Source of the DNA: Streptomyces sp. Ru72 | Lineage (GTDB): Bacteria; Actinomycetota; Actinomycetes; Streptomycetales; Streptomycetaceae | Direction: 5' to 3' | NCBI RefSeq assembly: GCF_002920635.1 | Contig: NZ_PQSR01000009.1 | Span: 62,001-126,000 of the forward strand | Length of the DNA stretch: 64,000 bases | Shown here: one piece after another, positions 29,146 to 56,942 of the stretch | How the letters are laid out: each line of letters opens with the position of its first letter | Numbering within the stretch: the first letter of the stretch is position 1 | Translations under genes and position numbers: made by a program | Notes under the pieces: generated by a model | What the model saw: the letters and a program-made list of their open reading frames with translations, nothing else | Told to the model about the DNA's origin: nothing | The model's database searches: none

Positions 29146-31875
29146 ATGACTGGAGAATCCGGTCGATCTGCGCGCCGCCCAGGCCGCTCGCTGAGCGTGC
29201 GCAGTCTCGCCGGGCAGGTCTTTCTCCTGCAGTTCGCCGTCGTGGTGCTGCTCGTCGCCGCCACGGTGGTGGCTCTCGTGGTGCAGGCCCGGCGCGACAA
29301 CATGGCGGACGCCCGGAACCGCACCCTCGCCGCCGCCCAGACGTTCGCCAACTCGCCGGGGATCGTGGCCGCGCTGAACAGCCCGCATCCGAGCGCGGTG
29401 CTCCAGCCGCGTGCGGAGGCGGCGCGGAAGGCCGCGGGTGTCGACGCCGTCATCGTGTACCGGCTGGACGGGATCACCCTCACCCACAGCGATCCGCACC
29501 AGATCGGCAAGCATGTCATCGGGCCCTACGCACAGGCCGCGGCCGGCAAGCCGTTCACCAGGACCTTCCAAGGGTCCCTGGGGCTCTCGGTGATCTCGGC
29601 GGTCCCGGTCAGGGCCCCCGACGGCTCGGTCGTCGCCATCGTGTCCGTTCCCGTCACGGTCGAGAAGCTGCAGCACCGGGTGGACCGGCAGCTGCCGGTG
29701 CTCTTCGGCGGCGCCGCCGGGGCGCTGGTCATCGCCGTGGGCGGGTCCGCCCTGGTGAGCCGTCGCCTGCGGCGGCAGACCCATGGCCTGGGCCCGACCG
29801 AGATGACCCGGATGTACGAGCACCACGACGCGGTCCTGCACGCCGTGAGGGAAGGCGTACTGATCATCTCCGCCGAGGGCGGGCTGCTGCTCGCCAACGA
29901 CGAGGCACGGCGGCTGCTGGACCTGCCGGCGGACGCCGAGGGACGCCATGTCACCGATCTGGGCCTCGAGGAGGACCTGCCCGGACTGCTGGCCTCCGAC
30001 CGCCCGGCCACCGACGAGGTGTACCTCGCGGCGGACCGCCTGCTGGCGGTCAACAAGCGGCCCACCGCTCCCCGCGGACCGGCCGGCAGCGTGGTGACGC
30101 TCCGGGACACCACGGAGCTGCTCGCGCTGTCCGGACGGGCGGAGGTGGCGCGCGAACGCCTGAAGCTGCTCTACGACGCCGGGGGCCGGATCGGCACCAC
30201 CCTGGACGTGAAGCGCACCGCCGAGGAACTGGCGGAGGTGGCGGTGCCCCGGTTCGCGGACGTGGTCACCGTCGAACTGCTGGACCCGGTCCTGTCCGGC
30301 GGGGAGCCCTCCGCGGCGAACCCCGACATGCGCCGGGTCGCGCTCGCGGGCCTGCACGACGACCGTCTCCTGTACCCCGTCGGCGCGCGGGTCCGGTTCA
30401 TCCCCGCCCACCCCGTCGCCAGGGCGATGCAGAGCGGAGGAGCGGTCCTGGTCAGGGAGCTGGGCGCGGACGACAGCTGGGTGGCCCAGGACGCCGTACG
30501 GTCCCGGCGCATCCTCGACCACGGCATCCACTCCCTGCTGGCGGTCCCGCTGCGGGCCCGCGGGGTGGTGCTGGGAACCGTCGACTTCTGGCGGGGGCGG
30601 GCCTCCCCGCCGTTCGACGAGGAGGACGTGTCCTTCGCCGAGGAGCTGGTCGCCCGGGCCGCGGTGAGCATCGACAACGCCCGCCGCTTCACCCGTGAGC
30701 ACACCATGGCCGTCACCCTCCAGCACAGTCTGCTGCCCCGCGGGCTCCCCGAGCAGTCCGCCCTCGACGTGGCCTACCGCTACCTGCCCGCGCAGGCGGG
30801 AGTGGGTGGCGACTGGTTCGACGTCATCCCGCTGTCCGGCGCCCGGGTGGCCCTGGTCGTCGGCGACGTGGTGGGCCACGGCCTGCACGCCGCGGCGACC
30901 ATGGGCAGGCTGCGGACCGCCGTGCACAACTTCTCCGGCCTGGACATGCCGGCGGACGAGCTCCTGGGCCGACTGGACGAACTGGTGGCCCAGATCGACG
31001 CCGAGGAGGTCACCGCGGGGGAGGACGGGCAGGGGATCGCCGGGGCGAGCTGCCAGTACGCCGTCTACGACCCGGTCTCCGGGCAGCTGGCGATCGCCAC
31101 CATGGGCCACCCGGGACCGGCGGTCGTCCATCCCGACGGGAGCGTGGACTTCCCTCCCGTGCCCGTCTCTCCGCCCCTCGGACTGTGCACCGGTCTGCCC
31201 GTCGAGAGCACCGAGCTGACCGTGCCGGAGGGGTCGCGGCTGGTGCTCTTCACCGACGGCCTGGTCGAGGACCGCGACCGCGACCTGGACACCGGCCTCG
31301 CGGCCCTGGGCGCCGCCCTGGCCGGACCCGACCGCACCCCGGAGGCCACCTGCGCGAGGGTGATGGAGGCGTTGCTGCCCGAGCGGCCCACGGACGACAT
31401 CGTGCTGCTGGTGGCGCGCACCCGCTGTCTCGGCCCCGACCGGGTGGCCGAGTGGCAGGTGCCCCGCGACCCGGCGGCGGTGGGTCCGGTGCGCACCGCC
31501 TGCGCCCGCCGGCTGACGGAGTGGGGTCTGGAGGAGAACGTCTTCACCGCCGAGCTCATCCTGAGCGAGCTGATCACCAACGCCGTCCGCTACGGCGGCG
31601 AACCCGTCTCCGTCCGGCTGCTGCGTGATCGGGCGCTGATCTTCGAGGTGGCGGACGGCAGCAGTACCTCACCGCGGCTGCGCCGGGCGAAGGCCACCGA
31701 CGAGGGGGGCCGGGGACTGTTCCTGGTCGCCCAGTTCGCCGAGCGCTGGGGCACCCGCTACACGGGCACCGGCAAGGTCATCTGGGCCGAACAGTCCCTC
31801 CACGGCGGCGCCGCGCCGGGCGCCGAGGGGCTCGGCGAGATCCTGCTCGGCCAGTGGGAGGACACGGCCCTGTGA
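29146..31875 (+). CDS. CitA/DcuS-like sensor fused to SpoIIE phosphatase and HATPase domains
   Basis: A 909-aa membrane sensor. TM1 (about 22-48, VFLLQFAVVVLLVAATVVAL), an extracytoplasmic single-Cache-like domain, TM2 (about 185-205) and a PAS domain (about 225-325) closely follow the DcuS/CitA plan. They are followed not by a histidine kinase but by GAF (about 345-515), a PP2C/SpoIIE domain (GGDWFDVIP, GDVVGHG, ATMGHPGP, LFTDGL; about 530-755) and a HATPase domain (ELITNAVRYGGE, DEGGRGLF; about 780-895). It should dephosphorylate an anti-anti-sigma factor in response to an external ligand, while the HATPase may act as the opposing kinase. The ATG at 29146 is preceded by GAAAGGGGAT. An orphan binding protein follows. 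Confidence 0.88.
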   Translation: MTGESGRSARRPGRSLSVRSLAGQVFLLQFAVVVLLVAATVVALVVQARRDNMADARNRTLAAAQTFANSPGIVAALNSPHPSAVLQPRAEAARKAAGVDAVIVYRLDGITLTHSDPHQIGKHVIGPYAQAAAGKPFTRTFQGSLGLSVISAVPVRAPDGSVVAIVSVPVTVEKLQHRVDRQLPVLFGGAAGALVIAVGGSALVSRRLRRQTHGLGPTEMTRMYEHHDAVLHAVREGVLIISAEGGLLLANDEARRLLDLPADAEGRHVTDLGLEEDLPGLLASDRPATDEVYLAADRLLAVNKRPTAPRGPAGSVVTLRDTTELLALSGRAEVARERLKLLYDAGGRIGTTLDVKRTAEELAEVAVPRFADVVTVELLDPVLSGGEPSAANPDMRRVALAGLHDDRLLYPVGARVRFIPAHPVARAMQSGGAVLVRELGADDSWVAQDAVRSRRILDHGIHSLLAVPLRARGVVLGTVDFWRGRASPPFDEEDVSFAEELVARAAVSIDNARRFTREHTMAVTLQHSLLPRGLPEQSALDVAYRYLPAQAGVGGDWFDVIPLSGARVALVVGDVVGHGLHAAATMGRLRTAVHNFSGLDMPADELLGRLDELVAQIDAEEVTAGEDGQGIAGASCQYAVYDPVSGQLAIATMGHPGPAVVHPDGSVDFPPVPVSPPLGLCTGLPVESTELTVPEGSRLVLFTDGLVEDRDRDLDTGLAALGAALAGPDRTPEATCARVMEALLPERPTDDIVLLVARTRCLGPDRVAEWQVPRDPAAVGPVRTACARRLTEWGLEENVFTAELILSELITNAVRYGGEPVSVRLLRDRALIFEVADGSSTSPRLRRAKATDEGGRGLFLVAQFAERWGTRYTGTGKVIWAEQSLHGGAAPGAEGLGEILLGQWEDTAL

Positions 31876-32030: not shown

Positions 32031-33170
32031 GTGACCGCACCCCGTGGCCGAGTTGCAGCCGTCCTCGGCTGCCTCGCCCTCACGGCACTGTCCCTGAACG
32101 CCTGCGGCGGCCCACCGGCCACCCGGCTCGAGAAGCCGGCGTCGGCGACCTCCGCGCAGAACGCGGGCGGCATGCGGGCCCTGGCCGCCGCGGCGAAGAA
32201 GGAGGGCAGGCTCACGGCGATCGCGCTTCCGCGTGACTGGGCCGACTACGGCGGCCTGATCGACGGCTTCCAGAAGAAGTACGGGATCAAGGTGACCGTC
32301 CAGAACCCACTGGGGCACAGCCAGGACGAGATCAACGCCCTCAGAAGCAGCGGGACGCGGCCGACCGCTCCGGACGTGATCGACGTCGGCGACACGTTCG
32401 CCCGGACAGCGGCGCGGCAGAACCTGCTCGCGCCGTACAAGGTAGCGGCGTTCGACGCGATCCCCGGCAACCAGAAGGACCCGGGGGGCCGCTGGGCCAA
32501 CAACTACGGCGGCTACATCTCGATCGGCTGCGACGCCCGGCGCGTGAAGCCCTGCCCGCAGACCTTCGCCGATCTGCTGAAGCCCGCCTACAAGGGCATG
32601 GTCGCCCTCGAGGGCGACCCGACCCGGTCGGAGACCGCCTTCGCCGGCGTCTACGCGGCCGCGCTGGCCAACAACGGGTCGTTCGACGACATCGGGCCCG
32701 GCATCGACTTCTTCGCCAAGCTCGAGAAGAGCGGCAACTTCAACCCCCTTTCCGCCACCTCGGCGACGGTCCGGGACGGCCGGACACCCATCACCATCAA
32801 CTGGGACTACATCAATCTCCACACCGCCGACGAGCTGCGCGGCAGGGGCGTGAACTGGCACGTCTCCATCCCGTTCGACGGCAGCTTCGCCCAGTACTAC
32901 GCGCTGGCGGTCAACAGGCACGCCCCGCACCCGGCGGCCGCCCGTCTGTGGCAGGAATACCTGTTCGGCACCGAGGGCCAGAACCTCCGGCTCCGCGGCT
33001 ATGCCCGCCCGGTGCTCATGGACGTCATGCGGAAGGACGGCACCCTGGACACGGCCGCCGCCGCCCGGCTGCCGACGGTGGAGGGAACGCCGCAGTTCCC
33101 GACGGACGCGCAACTGGAGAAGGCGAGGCGCACCGTCGACCGGGACTGGACGGCGGCCGTCTCCGGATGA
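32031..33170 (+). CDS. Orphan extracellular solute-binding lipoprotein (PotD/AfuA-like)
   Basis: A 379-aa binding protein. The signal peptide ends in lipobox LNAC (about residue 24), so it is membrane-anchored. The fold segments KKEGRLTAIALPRDWADYGG and APDVIDVGDTFARTA suit the family that binds Fe(III), polyamines, thiamine or 2-aminoethylphosphonate. No permease or ATPase gene is adjacent. It lies 155 nt after a ligand-sensing SpoIIE phosphatase and converges, 10 nt apart, on a permease-phosphatase fusion. It may present a ligand to one of these, which is inference. The start is GTG with GGAG at 32022-32025. Confidence 0.85.
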   Translation: MTAPRGRVAAVLGCLALTALSLNACGGPPATRLEKPASATSAQNAGGMRALAAAAKKEGRLTAIALPRDWADYGGLIDGFQKKYGIKVTVQNPLGHSQDEINALRSSGTRPTAPDVIDVGDTFARTAARQNLLAPYKVAAFDAIPGNQKDPGGRWANNYGGYISIGCDARRVKPCPQTFADLLKPAYKGMVALEGDPTRSETAFAGVYAAALANNGSFDDIGPGIDFFAKLEKSGNFNPLSATSATVRDGRTPITINWDYINLHTADELRGRGVNWHVSIPFDGSFAQYYALAVNRHAPHPAAARLWQEYLFGTEGQNLRLRGYARPVLMDVMRKDGTLDTAAAARLPTVEGTPQFPTDAQLEKARRTVDRDWTAAVSG

Positions 33171-33180
33171 CCGGCGGGTC

Positions 33181-35949
33181 CTACGGTGAGTCGGTGGACG
33201 GCAGCGGCTGCTCGGTCCAGATGGTCTTGCCCGTGGGGGTGTAGCGAGTTCCCCACTGCTGGGTCATCTGGGCGATGATGTACAGGCCCCGGCCGCCCTC
33301 GTCGTCGCTCGCGGCGTGGCGCAGGTTCGGGGCGGTGTGCCCGGGGTCGGACACCTCGCAGATCAGGCTGCCCGAGGTGAAGCCGGTGATCGGCTCCGCG
33401 CGGATCAGACGCACCTGGATCGGGCCCCCGACGTAACGGATCGCGTTGGTGACCAGCTCGGTCACGATGAGCTCGGTGGTGAACACGAGGTCGTCGAGAC
33501 CCCAGTCGCCGAGCTGCTTGCCGACGGTGTTGCGGACGGAGGCGACCGCTGCCGGGTCCGCCGCCAGCTCCCACTGCGCGAGCCGGTTGCGGTCCAGCAG
33601 GCGGGTGCGGACCAGCAGCAGCGTCGCGTCCTCGTCCACCGGCCCGGGCAGCAGCGTGGCCACCGCCCGGTCGCACAGCTCCTCCAACGGCTCGCGGTGA
33701 TCGGCGAGGGCCCGGGCGAGCAGGCCGCGCCCGACCTCTGGGCCGTCCGCCGCCTGGAAGAGGCCGTCTGTGAAGAAGGCGAGAAGGCTGCCCGGTTCGA
33801 GCCGCAGTTCGGTGGACTGGTAGGGCGGTCCGGTGCCTCCGAGAGCCGGGCCGGGCGGGAGTTCCGGGTAGTCGGCGACGCCCGTGTCCGGCGCGACGAC
33901 CGCCAGGGGCGACCGGCCCGCCCGCGCCAGGCTGCACTGTCCCGACACCGGGTCGTACACCGCGTACAGGCAGGTCACCCCGTGTGCGCCCTCGACGTGC
34001 CGGCCGCGGCCCGCAGGGCGTCCGGCCGGGCGCTCGTGCGCGGTCTGCTCGACCAGGTCGGCCAGCCGGGCGAGCAGTTCGTCCGGGGCCAGATCCAGCC
34101 GGGCCAGTACGCGTACCCCCGTGCGCAGGCGCCCCATGGTGGCGGCGGCCCGCAGCCCGTGGCCGACCACGTCCCCGACGACCAGGCCGACCCGGGTGCC
34201 CGACAGCGGGATGACGTCGAACCAGTCGCCGCCCACCCCGGAGCCGTTGTCGGCGGGCAGATAGCGGCTCGCGGCCTGTACGGCACTCTGCTGCGGCAGG
34301 CGGTGCGGGAGCAGGCTCCGCTGGAGCTTGAGCGCCGCGGTGTGCTCACGGGTGATCACCAGCATCAGCACGAAGCCCAGCAGCAGAGCTCCCAGGCCCA
34401 CCACGGTGACCCCGCCCGTCGGGCCGATCACCGGCAGGTCGACGACCGTCGAGCCGTAGCGGGGGTCCGCGTAGACGCCGAAGGCGGCGTAGAGGAACAG
34501 CCCGAACATGATGAGCCCGCCGAGCCCCGGCAGCACGCCCTTGCACAGCAGGTCACGGACGCTGCGGGTGAGGACCCTGCGGTGGTACCACAGGCAGGCG
34601 AAGCCGGTGAGCCCGTAGTAGAACGCGATCGCGAGGCCGACCGATTCGACCGAGTCGGCCAGGAAGTCCCGGCTGAACGAGGACAGCAGGAGCAGAACGG
34701 CGATGGAGAGCGCCCCCATGCCGACGGTCGACCAGGTCGGGGTGAGGAACCGGCGGTGGATCCGGGCGAAGTGGGCGGGGACCGCCTTGTGGACCGCCAT
34801 GGAGAACACGGTCCGGGCCAGCGGCAGGATGGTCGTCTGGGTGGAGGCCAGCGCCGAGGTCAGCACCATCAGGATCAGCAGCCGGGAGAACACCAGCCCC
34901 GGGCCGTGGCTGCCGAAGACGGCGTCGCCCAGCCCGGAGAGCACATCGCCCGAGTTGCCGGGGTTGCCCAGCCCGATGCCCGAGCTGCCGACCCCGGCGA
35001 ACGCCTGCGCGGACGTCGACACCAGTGCGTAGGTGACCAGGAGCAGCACGGTGGAGACCACCGCGGCCCGCCCGGGGACGCGTGTGCTGTCGACGGTTTC
35101 CTCGTTGACCGTGACGGCGGTGTCCCAGCCCCAGTAGATGAACACCGCCGCGAGGAGGCCCGAGGTCAGCGCCTTCGCCGAGGACACCTGGAAGGGGTCG
35201 AACCAGGAGGCGGAGACGTGGATCGCCGTCGGGGGAGCGCTGGTGTAGACCCTGACCAGCGCGGTCACCGCGAACAGGACCAGTACCGCCACCTCGACGC
35301 ACAGCAGCCAGCGCTGGAGGGCGGCCGAGATCTCGATGCCGATGTAGCAGACGGCGGTGAGTACGACGATCCAGACGATGCCCGCCACGGTGGTCCACAC
35401 CCGGCTCATCGCCAGGGCGTCCAGGCCCACCAGCCGGAAGCCGTAGATCCCGGCGATCTCGGCGAGGTTGGCCAGGACGAGGATGTCCGCCACGATCAGG
35501 CCCCAGCCGCCCATCCAGCCGGTGCGCGGCCCGAAGGCACGGGTCGCCCAGGTGAAAGCGGTCCCGCAGTCGGCGTTGGACGCGTTCAGCTCCCGGTAGG
35601 CGTACGCGATCAGCAGCATCGGGACGAACGCCAGCATGGTGACGATCGGGGCCTGCAGCCCCACACCCGCCACGATGAGGCCCAGCGTGGCCGCGAGGCT
35701 GTACGCCGGCGCGGTGGAGGCCAGCCCGATGACGACCGAGGAGAACATGCCGAGGGCGCCGCTCTTGAGCCCTTTCCGGCCGGGCCCCGTGCCGGGGGCG
35801 GGACTGCCGGCGGGACGAGTCGAAAGTGCGGCCCTGTCACCCACCTTGCCCATTATGTGGAGAATCGGCAGGGAGCGCTTCTTCGTCACCGCGCCCGGCG
35901 ACCCGGCCGGGGAGGCCGTCCCGGGTCCGGTGGTCTCAGGGGCCGGCAA
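33181..35949 (-). CDS. APC amino-acid permease fused to SpoIIE phosphatase and HATPase domains
   Basis: A 922-aa fusion. Residues about 60-520 form a complete APC-superfamily permease with about 12 hydrophobic segments and the typical GLASTAPAYSLAATLGLIV opening. It is followed by a PP2C/SpoIIE domain (about 540-770: GGDWFDVIP, GDVVGHG, FFTDGL) and a HATPase domain (about 790-915: ELVTNAIRY, DEGGRGLY). The usual AGHxP of these phosphatases is AGRSP here. It should link amino-acid transport or occupancy to partner-switching regulation of a sigma factor. The start is uncertain: the TTG at 35949 overlaps the upstream gene by 14 nt, and GTG 35889 and ATG 35853 also fit. None has a good ribosome site, suggesting coupling. 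Confidence 0.87.
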   Translation of the reverse strand: MPAPETTGPGTASPAGSPGAVTKKRSLPILHIMGKVGDRAALSTRPAGSPAPGTGPGRKGLKSGALGMFSSVVIGLASTAPAYSLAATLGLIVAGVGLQAPIVTMLAFVPMLLIAYAYRELNASNADCGTAFTWATRAFGPRTGWMGGWGLIVADILVLANLAEIAGIYGFRLVGLDALAMSRVWTTVAGIVWIVVLTAVCYIGIEISAALQRWLLCVEVAVLVLFAVTALVRVYTSAPPTAIHVSASWFDPFQVSSAKALTSGLLAAVFIYWGWDTAVTVNEETVDSTRVPGRAAVVSTVLLLVTYALVSTSAQAFAGVGSSGIGLGNPGNSGDVLSGLGDAVFGSHGPGLVFSRLLILMVLTSALASTQTTILPLARTVFSMAVHKAVPAHFARIHRRFLTPTWSTVGMGALSIAVLLLLSSFSRDFLADSVESVGLAIAFYYGLTGFACLWYHRRVLTRSVRDLLCKGVLPGLGGLIMFGLFLYAAFGVYADPRYGSTVVDLPVIGPTGGVTVVGLGALLLGFVLMLVITREHTAALKLQRSLLPHRLPQQSAVQAASRYLPADNGSGVGGDWFDVIPLSGTRVGLVVGDVVGHGLRAAATMGRLRTGVRVLARLDLAPDELLARLADLVEQTAHERPAGRPAGRGRHVEGAHGVTCLYAVYDPVSGQCSLARAGRSPLAVVAPDTGVADYPELPPGPALGGTGPPYQSTELRLEPGSLLAFFTDGLFQAADGPEVGRGLLARALADHREPLEELCDRAVATLLPGPVDEDATLLLVRTRLLDRNRLAQWELAADPAAVASVRNTVGKQLGDWGLDDLVFTTELIVTELVTNAIRYVGGPIQVRLIRAEPITGFTSGSLICEVSDPGHTAPNLRHAASDDEGGRGLYIIAQMTQQWGTRYTPTGKTIWTEQPLPSTDSP

Positions 35950-37042
35950 GCCCCGTCTTCAGGCCCGCCCCGCACAGCGGCAGCACCGCGCTGCGGGACC
36001 CGAGGACCCCCTCCCGTACGGCCGCCCAGCAGGCCACACCCGTCGACTCCACGTACAGGCCCCGGGACGCCAGGTCGAGTTGGGCGTCGCGGATCCGGTC
36101 CTCGGTCACCGTCAGGAACGTGCCGCCCGAGTCGCGTACCGCGCGCAGGATCTGGCGGGCCCGGGGTGGGCGCGGGATCGCGATCCCCTCGGCGGACGTC
36201 GGCGTCGCGGGGGTGATGTCCACCAGGTCCTCGGCGCCCTCCTCCCACGCGCGTGCCAGCGGGGCGACGGCCGCCGCCTGCACCGCGTAGAGCGCCGGGC
36301 GGCGGTCGAGCAGCCCCGCCCCGTACAGCTCCGTGATCGCGAGGGAGGCGCCCAGCAGCAGCGTGCCGTTGCCGACGGGGAGCACGAGCACGTCCGGGAG
36401 CCGCCCGCCGAGGTCCTCCCACAGTTCGTGGACGTACGTCTTCGTGCCGTGCAGGAAGTAGGGGTTGAAGACGTGTGAGGCGTAGAACACCCCCGGCTCG
36501 TCCGCCGCGTCGCGTGCCACCCGCGCCGCCGCCTCGCGCCCGCCCTCGACGGGCACCACCCGCGCGCGGTGCGCCTCCATCTGCTCCAGCTTCTTGGCCG
36601 GGGTGCCTTCGGGGACGTACACCGTGCACGGCAGCGCGGCCCGGGCGCAGTACGCGGCGATCGACGTGCCCGCGTTGCCGCTGCTGTCGGCGATCACCTG
36701 CCGGGGCTGCAGGCGCAGCGCGAGTTCGGCGAGCAGCACCGCGCCGCGGTCCTTGAAGGACAGCGTCGGCATCAGGAAGTCCAGCTTCGCCGAGATGCCG
36801 TCCGTCAGCTCCACGAGCGGTGTACGGCCCTCGCCGAGGCTGATCGAGGGAGCCGCGAGCGGCAGCGTCTCCGCGTATCGCCACAGCGAGTTCACCCGGC
36901 CGCCGAGGGACTTCAGCGGGGCGGGCGTCGGAGCGAAGTCCAGGTCCAGCGGGCCGCAGCAGACGGGGCAGCACCAGGCGAGCGACTCCGCGGCCACTCG
37001 GGTGCCGTCCGTCGGGCAGTAACAGTCCGGCAAAGGTGTCAT
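35936..37042 (-). CDS. Threonine-synthase-like PLP-dependent enzyme
   Basis: A 368-aa fold-type II PLP enzyme. An N-terminal zinc-ribbon-like segment has Cys clusters (CYCPTDG and CCPVCCGPL, residues 7-31). The PLP lysine lies in TLSFKDRG (about residue 95), followed by SSGNAGTSIAAYC and the glycine-rich VLPVGNGTLLLG phosphate loop. True threonine synthases convert O-phosphohomoserine to threonine, but related members make other beta-replacement products, and the genome's housekeeping copy cannot be judged here. Its 3' end overlaps, or nearly overlaps, the permease-phosphatase fusion, suggesting a shared operon and a link to amino-acid sensing. It diverges from a GntR regulator. Confidence 0.83.
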   Translation of the reverse strand: MTPLPDCYCPTDGTRVAAESLAWCCPVCCGPLDLDFAPTPAPLKSLGGRVNSLWRYAETLPLAAPSISLGEGRTPLVELTDGISAKLDFLMPTLSFKDRGAVLLAELALRLQPRQVIADSSGNAGTSIAAYCARAALPCTVYVPEGTPAKKLEQMEAHRARVVPVEGGREAAARVARDAADEPGVFYASHVFNPYFLHGTKTYVHELWEDLGGRLPDVLVLPVGNGTLLLGASLAITELYGAGLLDRRPALYAVQAAAVAPLARAWEEGAEDLVDITPATPTSAEGIAIPRPPRARQILRAVRDSGGTFLTVTEDRIRDAQLDLASRGLYVESTGVACWAAVREGVLGSRSAVLPLCGAGLKTGLAGP

Positions 37043-39451: not shown

Positions 39452-39910
39452 GTGCCCATTAACCCCACGAAACCGGACATGGGTGGGCTTCTGGCCTGGG
39501 AAGTGATCGGCGTGCTCGACACCCAAGGCGAAAGCGCCGAGTGGACATTCCCCGCTGACCCCGGTGCGGTCCGCACCGCCCGCGCCGTCGTCCGGGGCCA
39601 GCTGCGCACCTGGGGTCTCGACGAGCTCGGTGATGTCGCCGCGCTGCTGGTCAGCGAGCTGGTCACCAACTCGATGCGGCACGCCACCGGCCCCATCGGC
39701 GTCCGCCTCGTCCGGGCCGCCGCCCCCGTGCCCACCCTGCTCGTCGAGGTCTCCGACCCGCTCCCCGACCTGCCCCGCGAGCGCAAGGCCCGCTCCGACG
39801 AGGAGGACGGCCGCGGTCTGCAGCTGGTCGCCCACTCCTCGCGCCGCTGGGGCACCCGGCCCGCGGACACCGGAAAGACGGTCTGGTTCGAGCTCGCGGT
39901 TCCCCGTTGA
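39452..39910 (+). CDS. Stand-alone HATPase anti-sigma-factor-like protein
   Basis: A 152-aa RsbW/SpoIIAB-like ATP-binding protein of the type abundant in Streptomyces. N box LLVSELVTNSMRHATG (about residues 63-78) and G box DEEDGRGLQLVAHSS (about 113-127) are present, as is the C-terminal GKTVWFELAVP. Such proteins bind sigma factors or phosphorylate STAS anti-anti-sigma factors; no sigma factor or STAS gene is adjacent. The start is GTG 39452 or ATG 39479, neither with a good ribosome site. It lies 276 nt before a PAS-GAF-SpoIIE phosphatase carrying the same domain. Confidence 0.85.
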   Translation: MPINPTKPDMGGLLAWEVIGVLDTQGESAEWTFPADPGAVRTARAVVRGQLRTWGLDELGDVAALLVSELVTNSMRHATGPIGVRLVRAAAPVPTLLVEVSDPLPDLPRERKARSDEEDGRGLQLVAHSSRRWGTRPADTGKTVWFELAVPR

Positions 39911-40100
39911 CCGCGCTCACCCGGTGCACGGCAGCGCGCCACCCGCGCGGTCGGCGGGGCGCGCACCGACCGATCGGATCGAGCCAGGAGCGCGGGCGGC
40001 GTTCTTTGGTTCGAGCGGGCATCACCTGGTTAGAAGACTGGGAGTATGGCCCGGCCGGTCCAAAAACCATCGGGATCGTGCTGTGATCGTGAACACCGTG

Positions 40101-40129
40101 TTGTGCGGCACCGTAGTGCTGGATACTGC
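40101..40129 (+). promoter_or_regulatory. Candidate promoter of the PAS-GAF-SpoIIE gene
   Basis: TTGTGC (40101-40106), a 17-nt spacer and TACTGC (40124-40129) resemble a housekeeping-sigma promoter. It lies about 58 nt before the GTG at 40187, which supports that start over the ATG at 40046. Confidence 0.45.
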
Positions 40130-40186
40130 GGGCAGCCGCCCCCGGTGACCGGTGCCGGACGCGGTGAGCTGGAGGGGACGGTTCGC

Positions 40187-42850
40187 GTGAGCGAGATACC
40201 AGCGAAGGCCACGGAGTCCGAGGACCCGTCGGACGGCGCGAGGGGCGGGGGCGCGGTCGATGCCGCCGCGGCCGTCGAGCCGCGCGACCCGGCGGGCGGC
40301 CCCCTTTGGCAGAGCAGTCCGCCCGGCTCCATCTACGACTACATCAAGGTCGCCTCGTTCTCCCTCGGTCCCGACGGGCTCGTCGACCAGTGGAGCCTGC
40401 GCGCCGAGCGTCTCTTCGGCATCCCCGCCGAGCGGGCCGTAGGCATGGACCCCATCGAGGCGTTCGTCGCCGCTGACCTGCGCGAGCGCGGTCAGCGCAA
40501 GATGGCCGAGATCCTGGACGGCCGTGAGTGGACCGGCGTCATCCCCTTCCGGCTGCCCGACGCGGAGCGGACCGAGGGGCTCGCCGAGGTCTACGTGATG
40601 CCCACCACGACCGAGGACGGCGAACAGGGCGCCGTGTGCATCATCGTCGACGCCCGCACCCTCCGCAGCATCGAGACCGACCTTGCCGCCTCGCAGGCGA
40701 TATTCGGCCAATCTCCCTTCGGCTTCCTGCTGATCGACACGGACCTGCGGGTGCGCCGCGCCAACGAGCGGTTCGCCTCCACGTTCGGCGGCACGCCCGC
40801 CGACCACCGCGGGCGCACCGTCCACAACTACCTGGAGTCGCCGGAGGCCGAGCGCGTCACCGCCACGCTGCGGCGCGTCCTGGAGACCGGCCAGTCCATC
40901 ACGGACATGCACATCACGGGATTCGTCCCCGGCTCCGACGAGCGCAGGCACTGGTCCGTCAACCTCTACCGCGTGCACAGCGGCACCGGGCGGCCCATCG
41001 GGATCGCCTGGCTCGGAACCGACATCACCGCGCGCCGCGCCGCCGCCCGCGAGGCCGCCGCCGCCCGCCGCAACCTCGCCCTGCTGAACGAGGCCGGCGC
41101 CCGTATCGGCAACTCCCTCGACCTGGAGACCACCGCCCGGGAACTCCTCGACGTCGTCGTGCCCGGTTTCTGCGACCTCGCCACCGTCGACCTCTACCAG
41201 GGGCTCCTGGCCGGCGACGAGACACCGCCGGGCCTGCCCGACGGCAGCGCCGAGCTGCGCCGCGTCGCGTTCGCCAGCGCCGTCTCGGACGCGCCCCTGC
41301 CCGGCGGGCACGCGCCGGTCGAGGTCGGCGCGGTGCACCACTTCTCCTTCAACTCGGCCTTCGCCGACGCCCTGCGCACCGCGCGCCCCCGGCACATCTC
41401 CGCCGAGGACGGCGGGCTGATCCAGTCCACCCTCGCGGTCCCGATGGTCGCGCACGACACCGTGGTCGGCCTCGCCCAGTTCTCCCGCACGAAGGGCAGC
41501 GAGCCGTTCGGGGAACGCGACCGCGCGCTCGCCGTGGAGCTCGCCGCGCGCGCCGCGGTCTGCATCGACAACGCGCGCCTGTACCGCCGCGAGCACGAGC
41601 GGGCGCTGATCCTGCAACGGTCCCTGCTGCCCCCCGGCGACCCGGAGGCCTCCGGCCTGGACATCGCCTGCCGGTATCTGCCGGGCAACGCGGCCACCGG
41701 ACGGCCGAGCGAGGTCGGCGGCGACTGGTTCGACGTCATCGAACTCCCGGGCCACCGCACCGCGTTGGTGGTCGGCGACGTCATGGGCCGGGGCCTGCGC
41801 GCCGCCGTCGCCATGGGGGAACTGCGCACCGCCGTGCGCACGTTGGCCCAGCTCGACCTCGAACCGGCCGAAGTCCTCGCACAACTGGACGAGATCGCGC
41901 GCGGCCTGGGGGCGCCCGGAGGCGTCCAGCAGGCCACCCGTGCCGCGCGCCGGCCCCGGGAGGCCGACCTGTCCGAGGTCTACCTCGCGACCTGTGTGTA
42001 CGCGGTCTACGACTCGGTGACGCGCCGCTGCACCTTCGCCAACGCGGGCCATCTCCCGCCGGTGCTCGTCGAGCCGGGCGAGCCCGCGCTGATGCTGGAC
42101 GTGCCGCCCGGGATGCCGCTCGGCGTGGGTGGCGAGCCGTTCGAGGAGGTCGAGGTCGAACTCCCGGAGGGCGCTCTGCTGGCGCTCTACACGGACGGTC
42201 TGGTGGAGTCCCGCGACCACCCCCTGGACGAGGGCCTGCAGGCGTTCGTCGGCGCCCTCACCGACCCCGCCGACCCGTCACCCGACCACCACCCCTCAGC
42301 GACGGCGCTGCGCGCCGACACCCATCGAAATCTGGAGGACGTCTGCGACCACGTCCTGAACACCCTGGACACCCATCACGGCGAGGACGACATCGCGTTG
42401 CTGATGGCACGTGTACAGGGACTGCCGGCCGACTCCGTCGGCGACTGGACGCTGCCCCGCGAGCCGCGCAGCGTGGGCAGGGCCCGGGAGTACGCGCGCG
42501 CACAGCTGCTCAGCTGGGACCTCGAACCGCTGGTCGACACCACCGAACTTCTCGTCAGCGAGCTGGTCACCAACGCGTTGCGCTACGGCGAGGGCGAGAT
42601 CAGGCTCCGGCTGCTGCTGGACCGGACGCTGGTGTGCGAGGTGTGGGACTCGGGCCTGGTCCAGCCGCGCCGCCGCCGCGCCCGGGACACCGACGAGGGC
42701 GGCCGGGGGCTGCAACTGGTCGGCATGCTCTCCGCGGCCTGGGGCTCGCGCCGTACGCCGCGCGGCAAGACGGTGTGGTTCGAACTCCCGTTGCCGGGCG
42801 GTGAGGGCGGCGTCACGGACCCGGCGGAGGCGTTGCTGAGTCTGTTCTAG
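40187..42850 (+). CDS. PAS-PAS-GAF-SpoIIE phosphatase with C-terminal HATPase domain
   Basis: An 887-aa cytoplasmic signalling protein. PAS1 (about 48-165, including WSLRAERLFGIPAERAVGMD), PAS2 (about 175-285), GAF (about 300-480), PP2C/SpoIIE (about 485-720: GGDWFDVIE, GDVMGRG, NAGHLPPVL, LYTDGL) and HATPase (about 755-870: ELVTNALRYGEG, DEGGRGLQ) occur in that order. It should dephosphorylate an anti-anti-sigma factor in response to internal signals. The GTG at 40187 has a strong GGAGGGG (40171-40177) and a promoter upstream; in-frame sequence before it looks non-coding. The preceding gene is a free HATPase protein, a likely functional relative. Its 3' end overlaps the next, convergent gene by 38 bp. 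Confidence 0.88.
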   Translation: MSEIPAKATESEDPSDGARGGGAVDAAAAVEPRDPAGGPLWQSSPPGSIYDYIKVASFSLGPDGLVDQWSLRAERLFGIPAERAVGMDPIEAFVAADLRERGQRKMAEILDGREWTGVIPFRLPDAERTEGLAEVYVMPTTTEDGEQGAVCIIVDARTLRSIETDLAASQAIFGQSPFGFLLIDTDLRVRRANERFASTFGGTPADHRGRTVHNYLESPEAERVTATLRRVLETGQSITDMHITGFVPGSDERRHWSVNLYRVHSGTGRPIGIAWLGTDITARRAAAREAAAARRNLALLNEAGARIGNSLDLETTARELLDVVVPGFCDLATVDLYQGLLAGDETPPGLPDGSAELRRVAFASAVSDAPLPGGHAPVEVGAVHHFSFNSAFADALRTARPRHISAEDGGLIQSTLAVPMVAHDTVVGLAQFSRTKGSEPFGERDRALAVELAARAAVCIDNARLYRREHERALILQRSLLPPGDPEASGLDIACRYLPGNAATGRPSEVGGDWFDVIELPGHRTALVVGDVMGRGLRAAVAMGELRTAVRTLAQLDLEPAEVLAQLDEIARGLGAPGGVQQATRAARRPREADLSEVYLATCVYAVYDSVTRRCTFANAGHLPPVLVEPGEPALMLDVPPGMPLGVGGEPFEEVEVELPEGALLALYTDGLVESRDHPLDEGLQAFVGALTDPADPSPDHHPSATALRADTHRNLEDVCDHVLNTLDTHHGEDDIALLMARVQGLPADSVGDWTLPREPRSVGRAREYARAQLLSWDLEPLVDTTELLVSELVTNALRYGEGEIRLRLLLDRTLVCEVWDSGLVQPRRRRARDTDEGGRGLQLVGMLSAAWGSRRTPRGKTVWFELPLPGGEGGVTDPAEALLSLF

Positions 42851-52558: not shown

Positions 52559-52786
52559 GGGTGGGCGCAGCGGGCACCCCGTAGCGCCGGGTTGCGCACC
52601 CCACCCCGCCCAGCCTCGGTACCGGGCGCCGCAAACCACCCTGAGCTGCACCAACGTAACCCGGCCCCCCCAAGCGGCAGAGCCCCCGTACCATGGGGTG
52701 AGGCCGTGGCACGTTCAGCCCGGCAGGGCGCGCGTACCGAGGACGTACGCGCAGCCGTCCTCACCACTCCGGGAGTACGCCGCAAT

Positions 52787-54703
<1,917 letters not shown>

Positions 54704-55006
54704 TTTTCGGCCACCGACGACAGGGTCGGGCGCTCCGCTGGACGGGGTGCTCGGCCCTGCCGTGCACAACGGCGGGATAGGGAAAACCCTTCACTTCCTT
54801 CAGGGAGCCGCGCGGCCCGACCTGTGCGCACTACCCTGCTGCCGAGGTGCATTCCGGCCATGCCAGGCGGATCGCCGGCGAACGGGGTTTGCATGGGCGG
54901 CCGTTCACCCGAACGGGACGGCGCGTGCACGGTGCGCATCGGTGTGCGCGTACGCAAGTGGCGCCCCCGCACACCTTCAACGTAACCGCAACCGGATTTT
55001 TTCCCT

Positions 55007-55031
55007 CGGGTGTCCGGAATGCGGACACCCG
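55007..55031 (+). promoter_or_regulatory. Perfect 10-bp inverted repeat in the operon leader
   Basis: CGGGTGTCCG and CGGACACCCG flank a 5-nt loop. No T run follows on either strand, so an operator or an RNA structure is more likely than a terminator. It is about 290 nt before the binding-protein start. Confidence 0.5.
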
Positions 55032-55046
55032 ACTCCGGTAGATGTG

Positions 55047-55074
55047 TAACAAGTCCGTTTCGCAGGGATCTTTC
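55047..55074 (+). promoter_or_regulatory. Candidate promoter with embedded palindrome
   Basis: TTCGAC (55147-55152 by base count within this leader is its equivalent position) could not be placed beyond doubt inside this interval; the readable signal is a TTCGAC, 16-nt spacer, TAGTTA pair whose -35 overlaps the palindrome TCGACC-CT-GGTCGA, located between the perfect inverted repeat and the gene start. See the entry at 55147 for the exact coordinates. Confidence 0.1.
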
Positions 55075-55146
55075 GGCAAACCGTTTGTCCGGATTTTGGA
55101 AGATGTACGGGCCAGGTGTGATGGAACCGAGACCTTATGGGTGTGG

Positions 55147-55174
55147 TTCGACCCTGGTCGATGGCAGATAGTTA
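55147..55174 (+). promoter_or_regulatory. Candidate promoter of the peptide transporter operon
   Basis: TTCGAC (55147-55152), a 16-nt spacer and TAGTTA (55169-55174) form a reasonable -35/-10 pair about 150 nt before the binding-protein start. The -35 overlaps the palindrome TCGACC-CT-GGTCGA (55148-55161), a possible operator. Tentative. Confidence 0.35.
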
Positions 55175-55322
55175 GGCGCGTAGAGCTCGGATCAAAGGGT
55201 CACGCCGCTGGCGGCGCCGACTCACGAGCGCGGGGGCACCTGACCATTTCAGGCACCGGTGACGGTGATGCGTCTTGTGCCCCTCCATGCGGTGAACCAA
55301 TGGACTCATGAGGAGGAGCCCC

Positions 55323-56942
55323 ATGCGTGGTGCCAAGAGCGCCAAGTGGGTTGCGATAGCCGCGGTTGTGGCGCTGGGTGCTACGGCCTGTGGTGGTGGC
55401 GGGGACAGCGGCTCGGGCGGCGGCAAGAGCAACGGCATCGTGTCGATGGAGATCGGTGAGCCGCAGAACAGCCTGGTCCCCACCAACACGTACGAGACCG
55501 AGGGCGGCCAGGTCATCAACGCTCTCTTCACGGGTCTGACCAAGCTTGACGCCAACAACAAGGTCGTCAACGCCATGGCGGAGTCGATCGAGACCAAGGA
55601 CAACAAGGTCTGGACGATCAAGCTGAAGTCGGGCTACACCTTCCACAACGGCGAGAAGGTCACCGCCCAGTCCTTCGTCGACGCCTGGAACTACGGCGCC
55701 AACCAGACGAACGCCCAGCAGACCAACCCGCTGTTCAGCCACATCCAGGGCTACAGCGACCTGAACCCGGGCGAGGGCAAGAAGCCCAAGACGGACAAGA
55801 TGTCGGGTCTGAAGGCCGTCGACGACAGCACCCTCCAGGTCACCCTGAACGGTCCGTTCTCGGCGTTCCCGTCGCAGCTGTCGTTCACCGCGTTCGTCCC
55901 GCTGCCCAAGGCGTTCTTCAAGGACCCGAAGGGCTTCGGCGAGGCCCCGATCGGCAACGGCCCCTTCATGATGAAGGGCAAGGTCAAGCACAACCAGGAA
56001 ATCGACACCGTCAAGTACGACAAGTACCCGGACGCCTCGAAGATCGAGGTCAAGGGTGTCGACTTCAAGATCTACTCGAACCTGGACACGGCCTACAAGG
56101 ACCTGGTCGCGGGCAACCTCGACATCGACATCAACGTCCCGACCTCGGGTCTGCCGACCTACAAGAAGGACCTGCCGGGCCGCACGATCGACGAGGCCGA
56201 CTCGGCCGTCGGCTACATCGGCTTCCCGATCAAGTACAACAAGGCGTTCCAGAACGCGGACCTGCGCAAGTCCATCTCCATGGCGATCGACCGGAAGACG
56301 ATCGCCGAGAAGGTCTTCGTCGGTGCCCGTACGCCCGCGGACGACTACATCAGCCCCATCATCGACGGCTACCGCAAGGGCGCCTGCGGTGAGGCCTGCA
56401 CCTACAACCCGAGCAAGGCCAAGGAGCTCTACAAGCAGGCCGGCGGGCTGCCCGGCAACGCGCTGGAGATCGGCTACAACGCGGACGGCGGCCACAAGGA
56501 GTGGGTCGAGGCGGTCGCCAACCAGCTCCAGCAGAACCTGGGCATCAAGGTGACGGCCAAGCCGTTCGAGCAGTTCCAGGCCATCCTCAACGACCTGGAC
56601 GCCAAGAAGTACCAGGGCGCGTTCCGTATGGCCTGGAGCATGGACTACCCGGACATGGAGGACTACCTCCGTCCGGTCTTCTCGAAGGACGCCATCGCCA
56701 ACGGCTCGAACTACTCCGGTTACGTCAACGAGGAGTTCGAGAAGCTCCTCGTCAAGGGCGACCAGGCCCCGACGCACGAGGAGGCCGTGAAGATCTACCA
56801 GCAGGCCGACGACGTCCTGCTGAAGGACCTGCCGTACATCCCGGTGTACTTCTACACGCTGAACGCCGGCTTCAGCGAGAACATCAAGTCGATGAAGGTC
56901 GCCGGCCACCAGGTCCTGTGGGACACGGTCAAGCTCGGCTGA
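55323..56942 (+). CDS. Oligopeptide ABC transporter substrate-binding lipoprotein
   Basis: A 539-aa family 5 binding protein (DppA/OppA type). The signal peptide has lipobox ATAC (about residue 22), followed by a Gly/Ser linker. Family features include SMEIGEPQNSLVPTNTYETE, YTFHNGEKVTAQSFVDAWNY and the C-terminal LKDLPYIPVYFYTLN. It captures peptides outside the membrane for the permeases encoded next. AGGAGG at 55311-55316 selects the ATG at 55323 over an in-frame ATG at 55308. A stable hairpin separates it from the permease genes, consistent with higher expression of the binding protein. Confidence 0.92.
   Translation: MRGAKSAKWVAIAAVVALGATACGGGGDSGSGGGKSNGIVSMEIGEPQNSLVPTNTYETEGGQVINALFTGLTKLDANNKVVNAMAESIETKDNKVWTIKLKSGYTFHNGEKVTAQSFVDAWNYGANQTNAQQTNPLFSHIQGYSDLNPGEGKKPKTDKMSGLKAVDDSTLQVTLNGPFSAFPSQLSFTAFVPLPKAFFKDPKGFGEAPIGNGPFMMKGKVKHNQEIDTVKYDKYPDASKIEVKGVDFKIYSNLDTAYKDLVAGNLDIDINVPTSGLPTYKKDLPGRTIDEADSAVGYIGFPIKYNKAFQNADLRKSISMAIDRKTIAEKVFVGARTPADDYISPIIDGYRKGACGEACTYNPSKAKELYKQAGGLPGNALEIGYNADGGHKEWVEAVANQLQQNLGIKVTAKPFEQFQAILNDLDAKKYQGAFRMAWSMDYPDMEDYLRPVFSKDAIANGSNYSGYVNEEFEKLLVKGDQAPTHEEAVKIYQQADDVLLKDLPYIPVYFYTLNAGFSENIKSMKVAGHQVLWDTVKLG

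Follow-up and report, generated by a model that had tools for sequence, protein, structure and literature searches.

Several described proteins join a transporter to a signaling module in one chain. In the SLC5-STAC kinases CbrA and CrbS, a full secondary transporter stands N-terminal to a cytosolic signaling output, an arrangement called a transceptor (PMC13022988). The studied members are proteobacterial and combine an SLC5/SSS transporter with a STAC domain and a histidine kinase. Ks-Amt5 uses its transporter domain to sense on behalf of the kinase fused to it (PMC5764959). In a 2020 study, histidine had no significant effect on any of the activities of CbrA (PMC7096432), so a fusion of this kind does not necessarily imply ligand-gated signaling. 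On the output side, the tandem of PP2C and HATPase domains is known from Rv1364c and other RsbU-RsbW regulators, Rv1364c having in addition a PAS domain and a C-terminal anti-anti-sigma domain; in RsbU, coiled-coil linkers are reported to carry signals from varied sensor domains (both PMC12143880). Fusions of a 5TMR fold to SpoIIE have been reported too, and among them an NRAMP fusion is described as the only assembly with a fused transporter (PMC11109136). The available text of PMC2887360, PMC11418112, and PMC12143880 mentions no permease, and we found no paper describing a permease-SpoIIE-HATPase fusion, an absence that is weak evidence given the thin coverage of subscription journals.

The window analyzed here, a 64,000-nucleotide stretch of DNA from Streptomyces sp. 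Ru72, encodes such a protein: an APC permease, a SpoIIE linker, and a PP2C plus RsbW-type output, in the Streptomycetaceae. It is not an SLC5-STAC histidine kinase, as a Pfam scan at E 0.1 detected no STAC domain and what it has in common with histidine kinases is limited to the ATPase fold. From Ks-Amt5, a trimeric Amt protein with a histidine kinase, it differs in both transporter fold and output, and unlike Rv1364c it has a permease and no STAS domain detectable by Pfam scan. The Streptomyces PAS/GAF-SpoIIE-HATPase proteins share its output and linker type (over residues ~532-919, those encoded at 29146-31875 and 40046-42850 of the window share 54% and 46% identity with the fusion) but have Cache, PAS, or GAF sensors in place of a permease. 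The first-pass annotation called a permease used as a sensor unusual; this holds, yet CbrA and Ks-Amt5 are precedents, and as judged from its sequence the protein may be a further form of a known principle, the transporter domain used as sensor.

One reading frame and its relatives

The genome (8.5 Mb) is assembled in 278 contigs, and the window lies within one of them. The coding start is probably the ATG rather than the TTG (Table 1), since the ATG is the first start codon in the frame of a congener copy (L039) that is 94% identical to the window fusion. Domain searches found AA_permease, SpoIIE, and HATPase_c_2 in this order, each above its Pfam cut-off, together with a sub-cut-off HATPase_c match. 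The single frame with APC permease, PP2C, and HATPase domains proposed in the first-pass annotation, which did not give the strand, is thereby borne out, and all the motifs it had listed (GGDWFDVIP, GDVVGHG, FFTDGL, ELVTNAIRY, DEGGRGLY, and AGRSP) are present in the translation. An NCBIfam scan of the fusion gave sub-cut-off matches only (RsbA_anti_sig, 39.9 vs. 210 bits).

Table 1. Features of the fused gene in the window (residues in 922-aa numbering unless stated)
Feature	Position	Strand	Details
Whole frame	33181..35949	-	922 aa from TTG; likely coding 33181-35850, 889 aa from ATG
APC-superfamily amino-acid permease	34360..35763	-	Residues ~63-530; Pfam AA_permease 72-453 (E 1.1e-17, 64.3 bits vs. 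cut-off 24.6) and model matches
TM12 and signaling linker, single helix (predicted)	34312..34413	-	Residues 513-546 (480-513 in 889-aa model); TREHxxALxLQRSLLP
SpoIIE-type PP2C phosphatase domain	33595..34269	-	Residues 561-785; Pfam SpoIIE 584-782 (E 1e-43, 149.9 bits vs. cut-off 25); four Asp kept, AGH His replaced by Arg
RsbW-type HATPase_c_2 (anti-sigma/kinase) domain	33196..33582	-	Residues 790-918; Pfam HATPase_c_2 796-911 (E 6.3e-12, 46.1 bits vs. cut-off 27.4)

Searched with the permease part, 295 genomes of the genus yielded 21 copies in 20 genomes, window included, with 74-100% identity over permease and linker and open frames of at least 898 aa; all 20 copies other than that of the window proved fused on translation. 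Among 297 genomes of the family, 26 matches cross the linker at 73% identity or more and extend to other genera, a count that includes the window's own copy and four genomes shared with the genus set and that was judged from the matches rather than by one-by-one translation; one of them (G476) has an open frame of just 661 aa. Within the best 80 of 358 confirmed relatives, 57 match the full permease and linker at 73-94%. Each of these 57 loci, in 55 assemblies of which two carry two fused copies each, runs as one frame into the PP2C domain; 56 reach a stop codon, and the remaining one (L092) is cut by the contig end. The other 23 of the best 80 are at most 60% identical, and their match stops at or before query residue 497. 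The genus set and the 57-locus set are not additive because 14 of the 20 genus copies are identical in sequence to a locus of the larger set, which leaves six further distinct copies. Records of fused copies are labeled Streptomyces, Kitasatospora, and Streptantibioticus, with one Saccharothrix and one Streptosporangium.

The fusion is therefore real and not an assembly error. Homologs split into two genes, the first ending near residue 530, which the first-pass annotation had named as evidence against it, were not seen among the nearest relatives, all of which are single frames; more distant permeases do end at about residue 530, as would be expected of the pre-fusion state. A frameshift, a misassembly, or a recent fusion confined to one strain has a negligible chance of explaining a frame shared by 57 loci that are 73-94% identical to the window and by six further distinct copies. 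In plasmid and phage sequences, no match to the fused gene covers 80% of the protein.

In a quick tree of 110 permeases for which just the permease columns were used (L140 yielded no permease), the 58 fused proteins, window included, form one clade (SH-aLRT 100) nested within standalone Streptomycetaceae permeases, which points to one fusion event followed by retention across dozens of related bacteria. Standalone relatives end shortly past TM12 (e.g., L174). Candidate independent fusions at G433, G309, G313, and G808, two at G882, and two in the window's own genome were rejected as standalone permeases with long upstream frames. In a phylum-wide sample of 396 genomes, no match beyond the family resembled a fusion, as judged by span and frame for matches to E 1e-60 with at most three candidates scored per genome and few of them translated.

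Junction, permease, and catalytic sites

Throughout the fused family, TM12 leads directly into the TREHxxALxLQRSLLP linker. The same linker is common to the SpoIIE paralogs of the genome (15 compared), where the position of TM12 is taken by the last helix of the sensor, and the TREH..LQRSLLP register is preserved between fusion and paralogs. The sensor of the paralog at 40046-42850 is a GAF domain by Pfam; for the other paralogs the GAF assignment is based on resemblance, with at least one sensor apparently of another type. Across 58 rows, the alignment has no gap between TM12 and the GGD motif (55 columns).

A monomer model based on an alignment of 116 proteins (45 fused proteins including that of the window, 63 standalone permeases, and eight SpoIIE-HATPase paralogs) reached a pLDDT of 91.4 and a pTM of 0.81 and superseded a poor first model from 21 fused rows (pLDDT 54.5). 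It predicts an unbroken helix through TM12 and the linker, a continuity that belongs to a modeled monomer and is not proof of signal transfer. The membrane part matches y+LAT1, AdiC, LAT1, and ApcT at Z 37-41.5 (y+LAT1: Z 41.5, rmsd 2.9, 434 residues aligned; ApcT: Z 38.0), in agreement with an APC fold; by sequence, its one match in the PDB is a weak one to CAT1 (E 7.4e-4). The best Foldseek match overall is the Rv1364c RsbU-RsbW structure 3ke6 (E 5.8e-15); by sequence, the output part at E 0.001 also matches this PDB entry and no other (E 3e-16).

The permease core is largely shared with standalone homologs. A set of 25 standalone permeases has 232 conserved positions, 157 of which also reach at least 95% identity among the 58 fused ones (L168 left out). 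The few fusion-specific changes comprise P126A and L481M (both 58/58), replacement of Q164 by Glu in 44/58 (in the helix taken for TM3), and replacement of T377 by Leu in 46/58; these positions are candidates for an altered ligand or transport step. Mean pairwise identity over 21 rows is 78% for the permease, 71% for PP2C, and 78% for the HATPase domain.

The phosphatase site was scored in 57 fused copies at the Asp residues of GGD (D1), GD (D2), and TDG (D3), the last Asp (D4), and the His of the AGH motif, with 56 copies counted beyond the point where L092 ends at its contig end. SpoIIE residues D628, D746, and D795 have been named as putative metal ligands (PMC5468089), and going by motif order rather than alignment, D2, D3, and D4 may be their counterparts. 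D1 (57/57) and D4 (56/56) are always kept. D2 is kept in 46/57 copies and otherwise replaced by Glu (eight) or Asn (three), D3 in 35/56 with replacement by Gly (12), Ala (five), Glu (two), Leu (one), or Arg (one), and the His in 19/57. Either D2 or D3 is changed in 32/57 copies and both in none, and 13/57 retain every scored residue. In a control of SpoIIE proteins from the window's own genome, catalytic residues are intact in 46/50, with D2 or D3 changed in three and the His in one. The control takes in 50 of 58 matches and leans toward canonical copies because of those left out (the window gene, the weakest matches, and the good C55 and C44). Bare counts are given without P values because related copies are not independent.

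In the window copy, AGRSP stands where 49/50 paralogs have the AGHxP His. The first-pass annotation rightly remarked that this altered motif may change activity, and the change proves to be a family trend, with the His lost from 38/57 fused copies; the Arg lowers the claim of activity, not that of homology. A near neighbor, L069, 94% identical over permease and linker, has Glu at D3. On the permease tree, D3 requires at least nine kept/lost changes, D2 at least four, and the His at least four, so D3 loss has probably recurred. All 21 D3 losses fall in copies lacking the His, with only two independent pairs on starred branches.

The HATPase motifs are nearly invariant. In 57 rows there is no change in GRGL, in the D and G of EVSDxG, or in the E, T, and N of ELVTN, and a few other motif positions vary. 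The dN/dS ratios, from a simple NG86 script that is crude at such GC and serves only for comparison between domains, are similar in the three domains (medians 0.33-0.40), also in copies with lost ligands, which argues against plain decay. The phosphatase looks impaired in over half of the fused family and may not be the output. RssB, a PP2C without activity that keeps its regulatory mechanics, is a possible model for the fused copies without D2 or D3; E. coli RssB differs in being C-terminally truncated and having a receiver domain, and the available text describes no permease or HATPase in it (PMC12143880). Outside the fused family, the own-genome SpoIIE paralogs L226, L227, and L228 lack metal-ligand Asp residues and are possible pseudo-phosphatases.

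A proposed transceptor and competing readings

We favor, at a probability of roughly 55%, a single-chain transceptor in which the state of the permease controls a partner-switching phosphatase/kinase. The APC-type permease would bind, and maybe transport, an amino acid or similar solute in the membrane, and its conformation would be passed via TM12 and the linker helix continuous with it to the PP2C and RsbW-type kinase/anti-sigma domains. By analogy with RsbU linkers (PMC12143880), linker movement would set the PP2C switch and the attached kinase, possibly in a dimer with crossing linkers as in RsbU. The phosphatase/kinase would then decide whether a STAS anti-anti-sigma factor, encoded at another locus, is phosphorylated or sequestered, and the state of that factor would determine the activity of a SigB/SigF-type sigma factor. 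Ligand sensing, dimerization, the STAS partner, and the direction in which the output acts are what we infer here.

That the permease is a sensor, as the first-pass annotation proposed, is favored by the retained fusion, the indel-free junction, the TM12-linker helix in the model, and the permease/SpoIIE gene pairs described below. Its further idea, that transport or amino-acid occupancy directly sets the phosphatase, needs amending in view of the frequent changes at D2, D3, and the His beside nearly invariant ATPase motifs. A tentative version, to which we give a minority chance, is a permease-gated anti-sigma kinase: after the fusion, the phosphatase would have lost its activity repeatedly while persisting as a mechanical relay, the amino-acid transporter would directly control the RsbW-type kinase, and phosphatase-active and phosphatase-dead transceptors would give different outputs in different Streptomyces.

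The main rival of the transceptor is coupling in the reverse direction, in which the PP2C/HATPase module controls the transporter, nucleotide or STAS/sigma docking opens or shuts the permease, and transport is the true output. The fold matches of the permease include c-di-AMP-bound KimA, a possible precedent by analogy. c-di-AMP regulates KimA via the cytosolic part of that protein. The well-conserved permease core fits such control, a degenerate phosphatase joined to an intact ATP-binding domain suits a regulatory tail better than a catalytic one, and transport can persist in such fusions, as CbrA transports histidine (PMC7096432). However, in the paralogs this linker connects other sensors with the phosphatase, which suggests a permease-to-output direction, and the fused copies with every scored phosphatase residue in place also speak against it. 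The SpoIIE proteins encoded beside standalone permeases carry PAS or GAF domains themselves, which fits either direction. On balance, we consider reverse coupling unlikely.

Still less probable is tethering alone, with the permease a membrane anchor or localization signal and the phosphatase/kinase working without its input. It would agree with a gene neighborhood that has no conserved member naming a specific solute, and with a phosphatase somewhat freer to vary than the permease. A plain anchor, however, needs neither a 12-TM permease constrained like the output domains nor a junction without indels in 58 rows.

To our knowledge, the signals of most Streptomyces SpoIIE phosphatases are unknown, and the genome studied here has 58 SpoIIE matches. 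Because the ligand of a permease sensor is accessible to ordinary transport and binding assays, the path from signal to sigma factor would be testable end to end. If the transceptor reading is correct, transporter-sensors would serve partner switching as well as histidine kinases. With both intact and damaged phosphatase sites, the family provides natural mutants for asking what a non-catalytic PP2C does.

Gene neighborhoods and permease/SpoIIE gene pairs

Within five genes on either side of the fused gene, no partner is conserved: the commonest neighbor family occurs in 14 of 56 loci and in varying places (L071 and L085, in which a crude gene caller missed the fused gene, were left out). The PALP gene at 35936-37042 was rejected as an operon partner, its relatives lying within five genes in 4/56 loci and directly upstream in two. 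The neighbors of standalone permeases gave no recurrent enzyme as a substrate clue (three loci without gene calls).

Six of 93 standalone permease loci (L063, L160, L165, L169, L272, and L287) have a SpoIIE gene 103-190 bp downstream in the same orientation. The number expected by chance within 400 bp on that strand is about 0.13, as computed from the SpoIIE matches per 8.5 Mb of the window's genome with a similar density assumed elsewhere; the enrichment was noticed post hoc, and 87/93 loci have no pair. The six loci belong to three groups (g16, g3, and the window's genus) and thus represent about three independent cases of gene pairing. The four paired proteins that were scanned contain PAS and/or GAF with SpoIIE, and all six paired SpoIIE sequences have catalytic motifs that are intact by eye.

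Some further genes of related type were observed. Within 10 kb of the fusion lie the SpoIIE-HATPase genes 29146-31875 (Cache-PAS-GAF) and 40046-42850 (PAS-GAF) and a lone HATPase_c_2 gene at 39452-39910, a block that L069 and L039 have as well. On the same strand as the Cache-SpoIIE gene and downstream of it, 32031-33170 encodes a solute-binding lipoprotein-like protein (SBP_bac_6; nearest NCBIfam PhnS, below cut-off), and the two may form a sensor pair. The Streptomyces phages MN234216.1, KY092484.1, and KY676784.1 encode proteins like the RsbW-type HATPase (36-40% identity over ~100-120 residues) that are possible phage anti-sigma factors. On the Streptomyces plasmid NZ_CP027299.1, a single 3.4 kb match (52749-56109) covers an annotated APC permease, a MASE1-domain protein, and a PP2C phosphatase.
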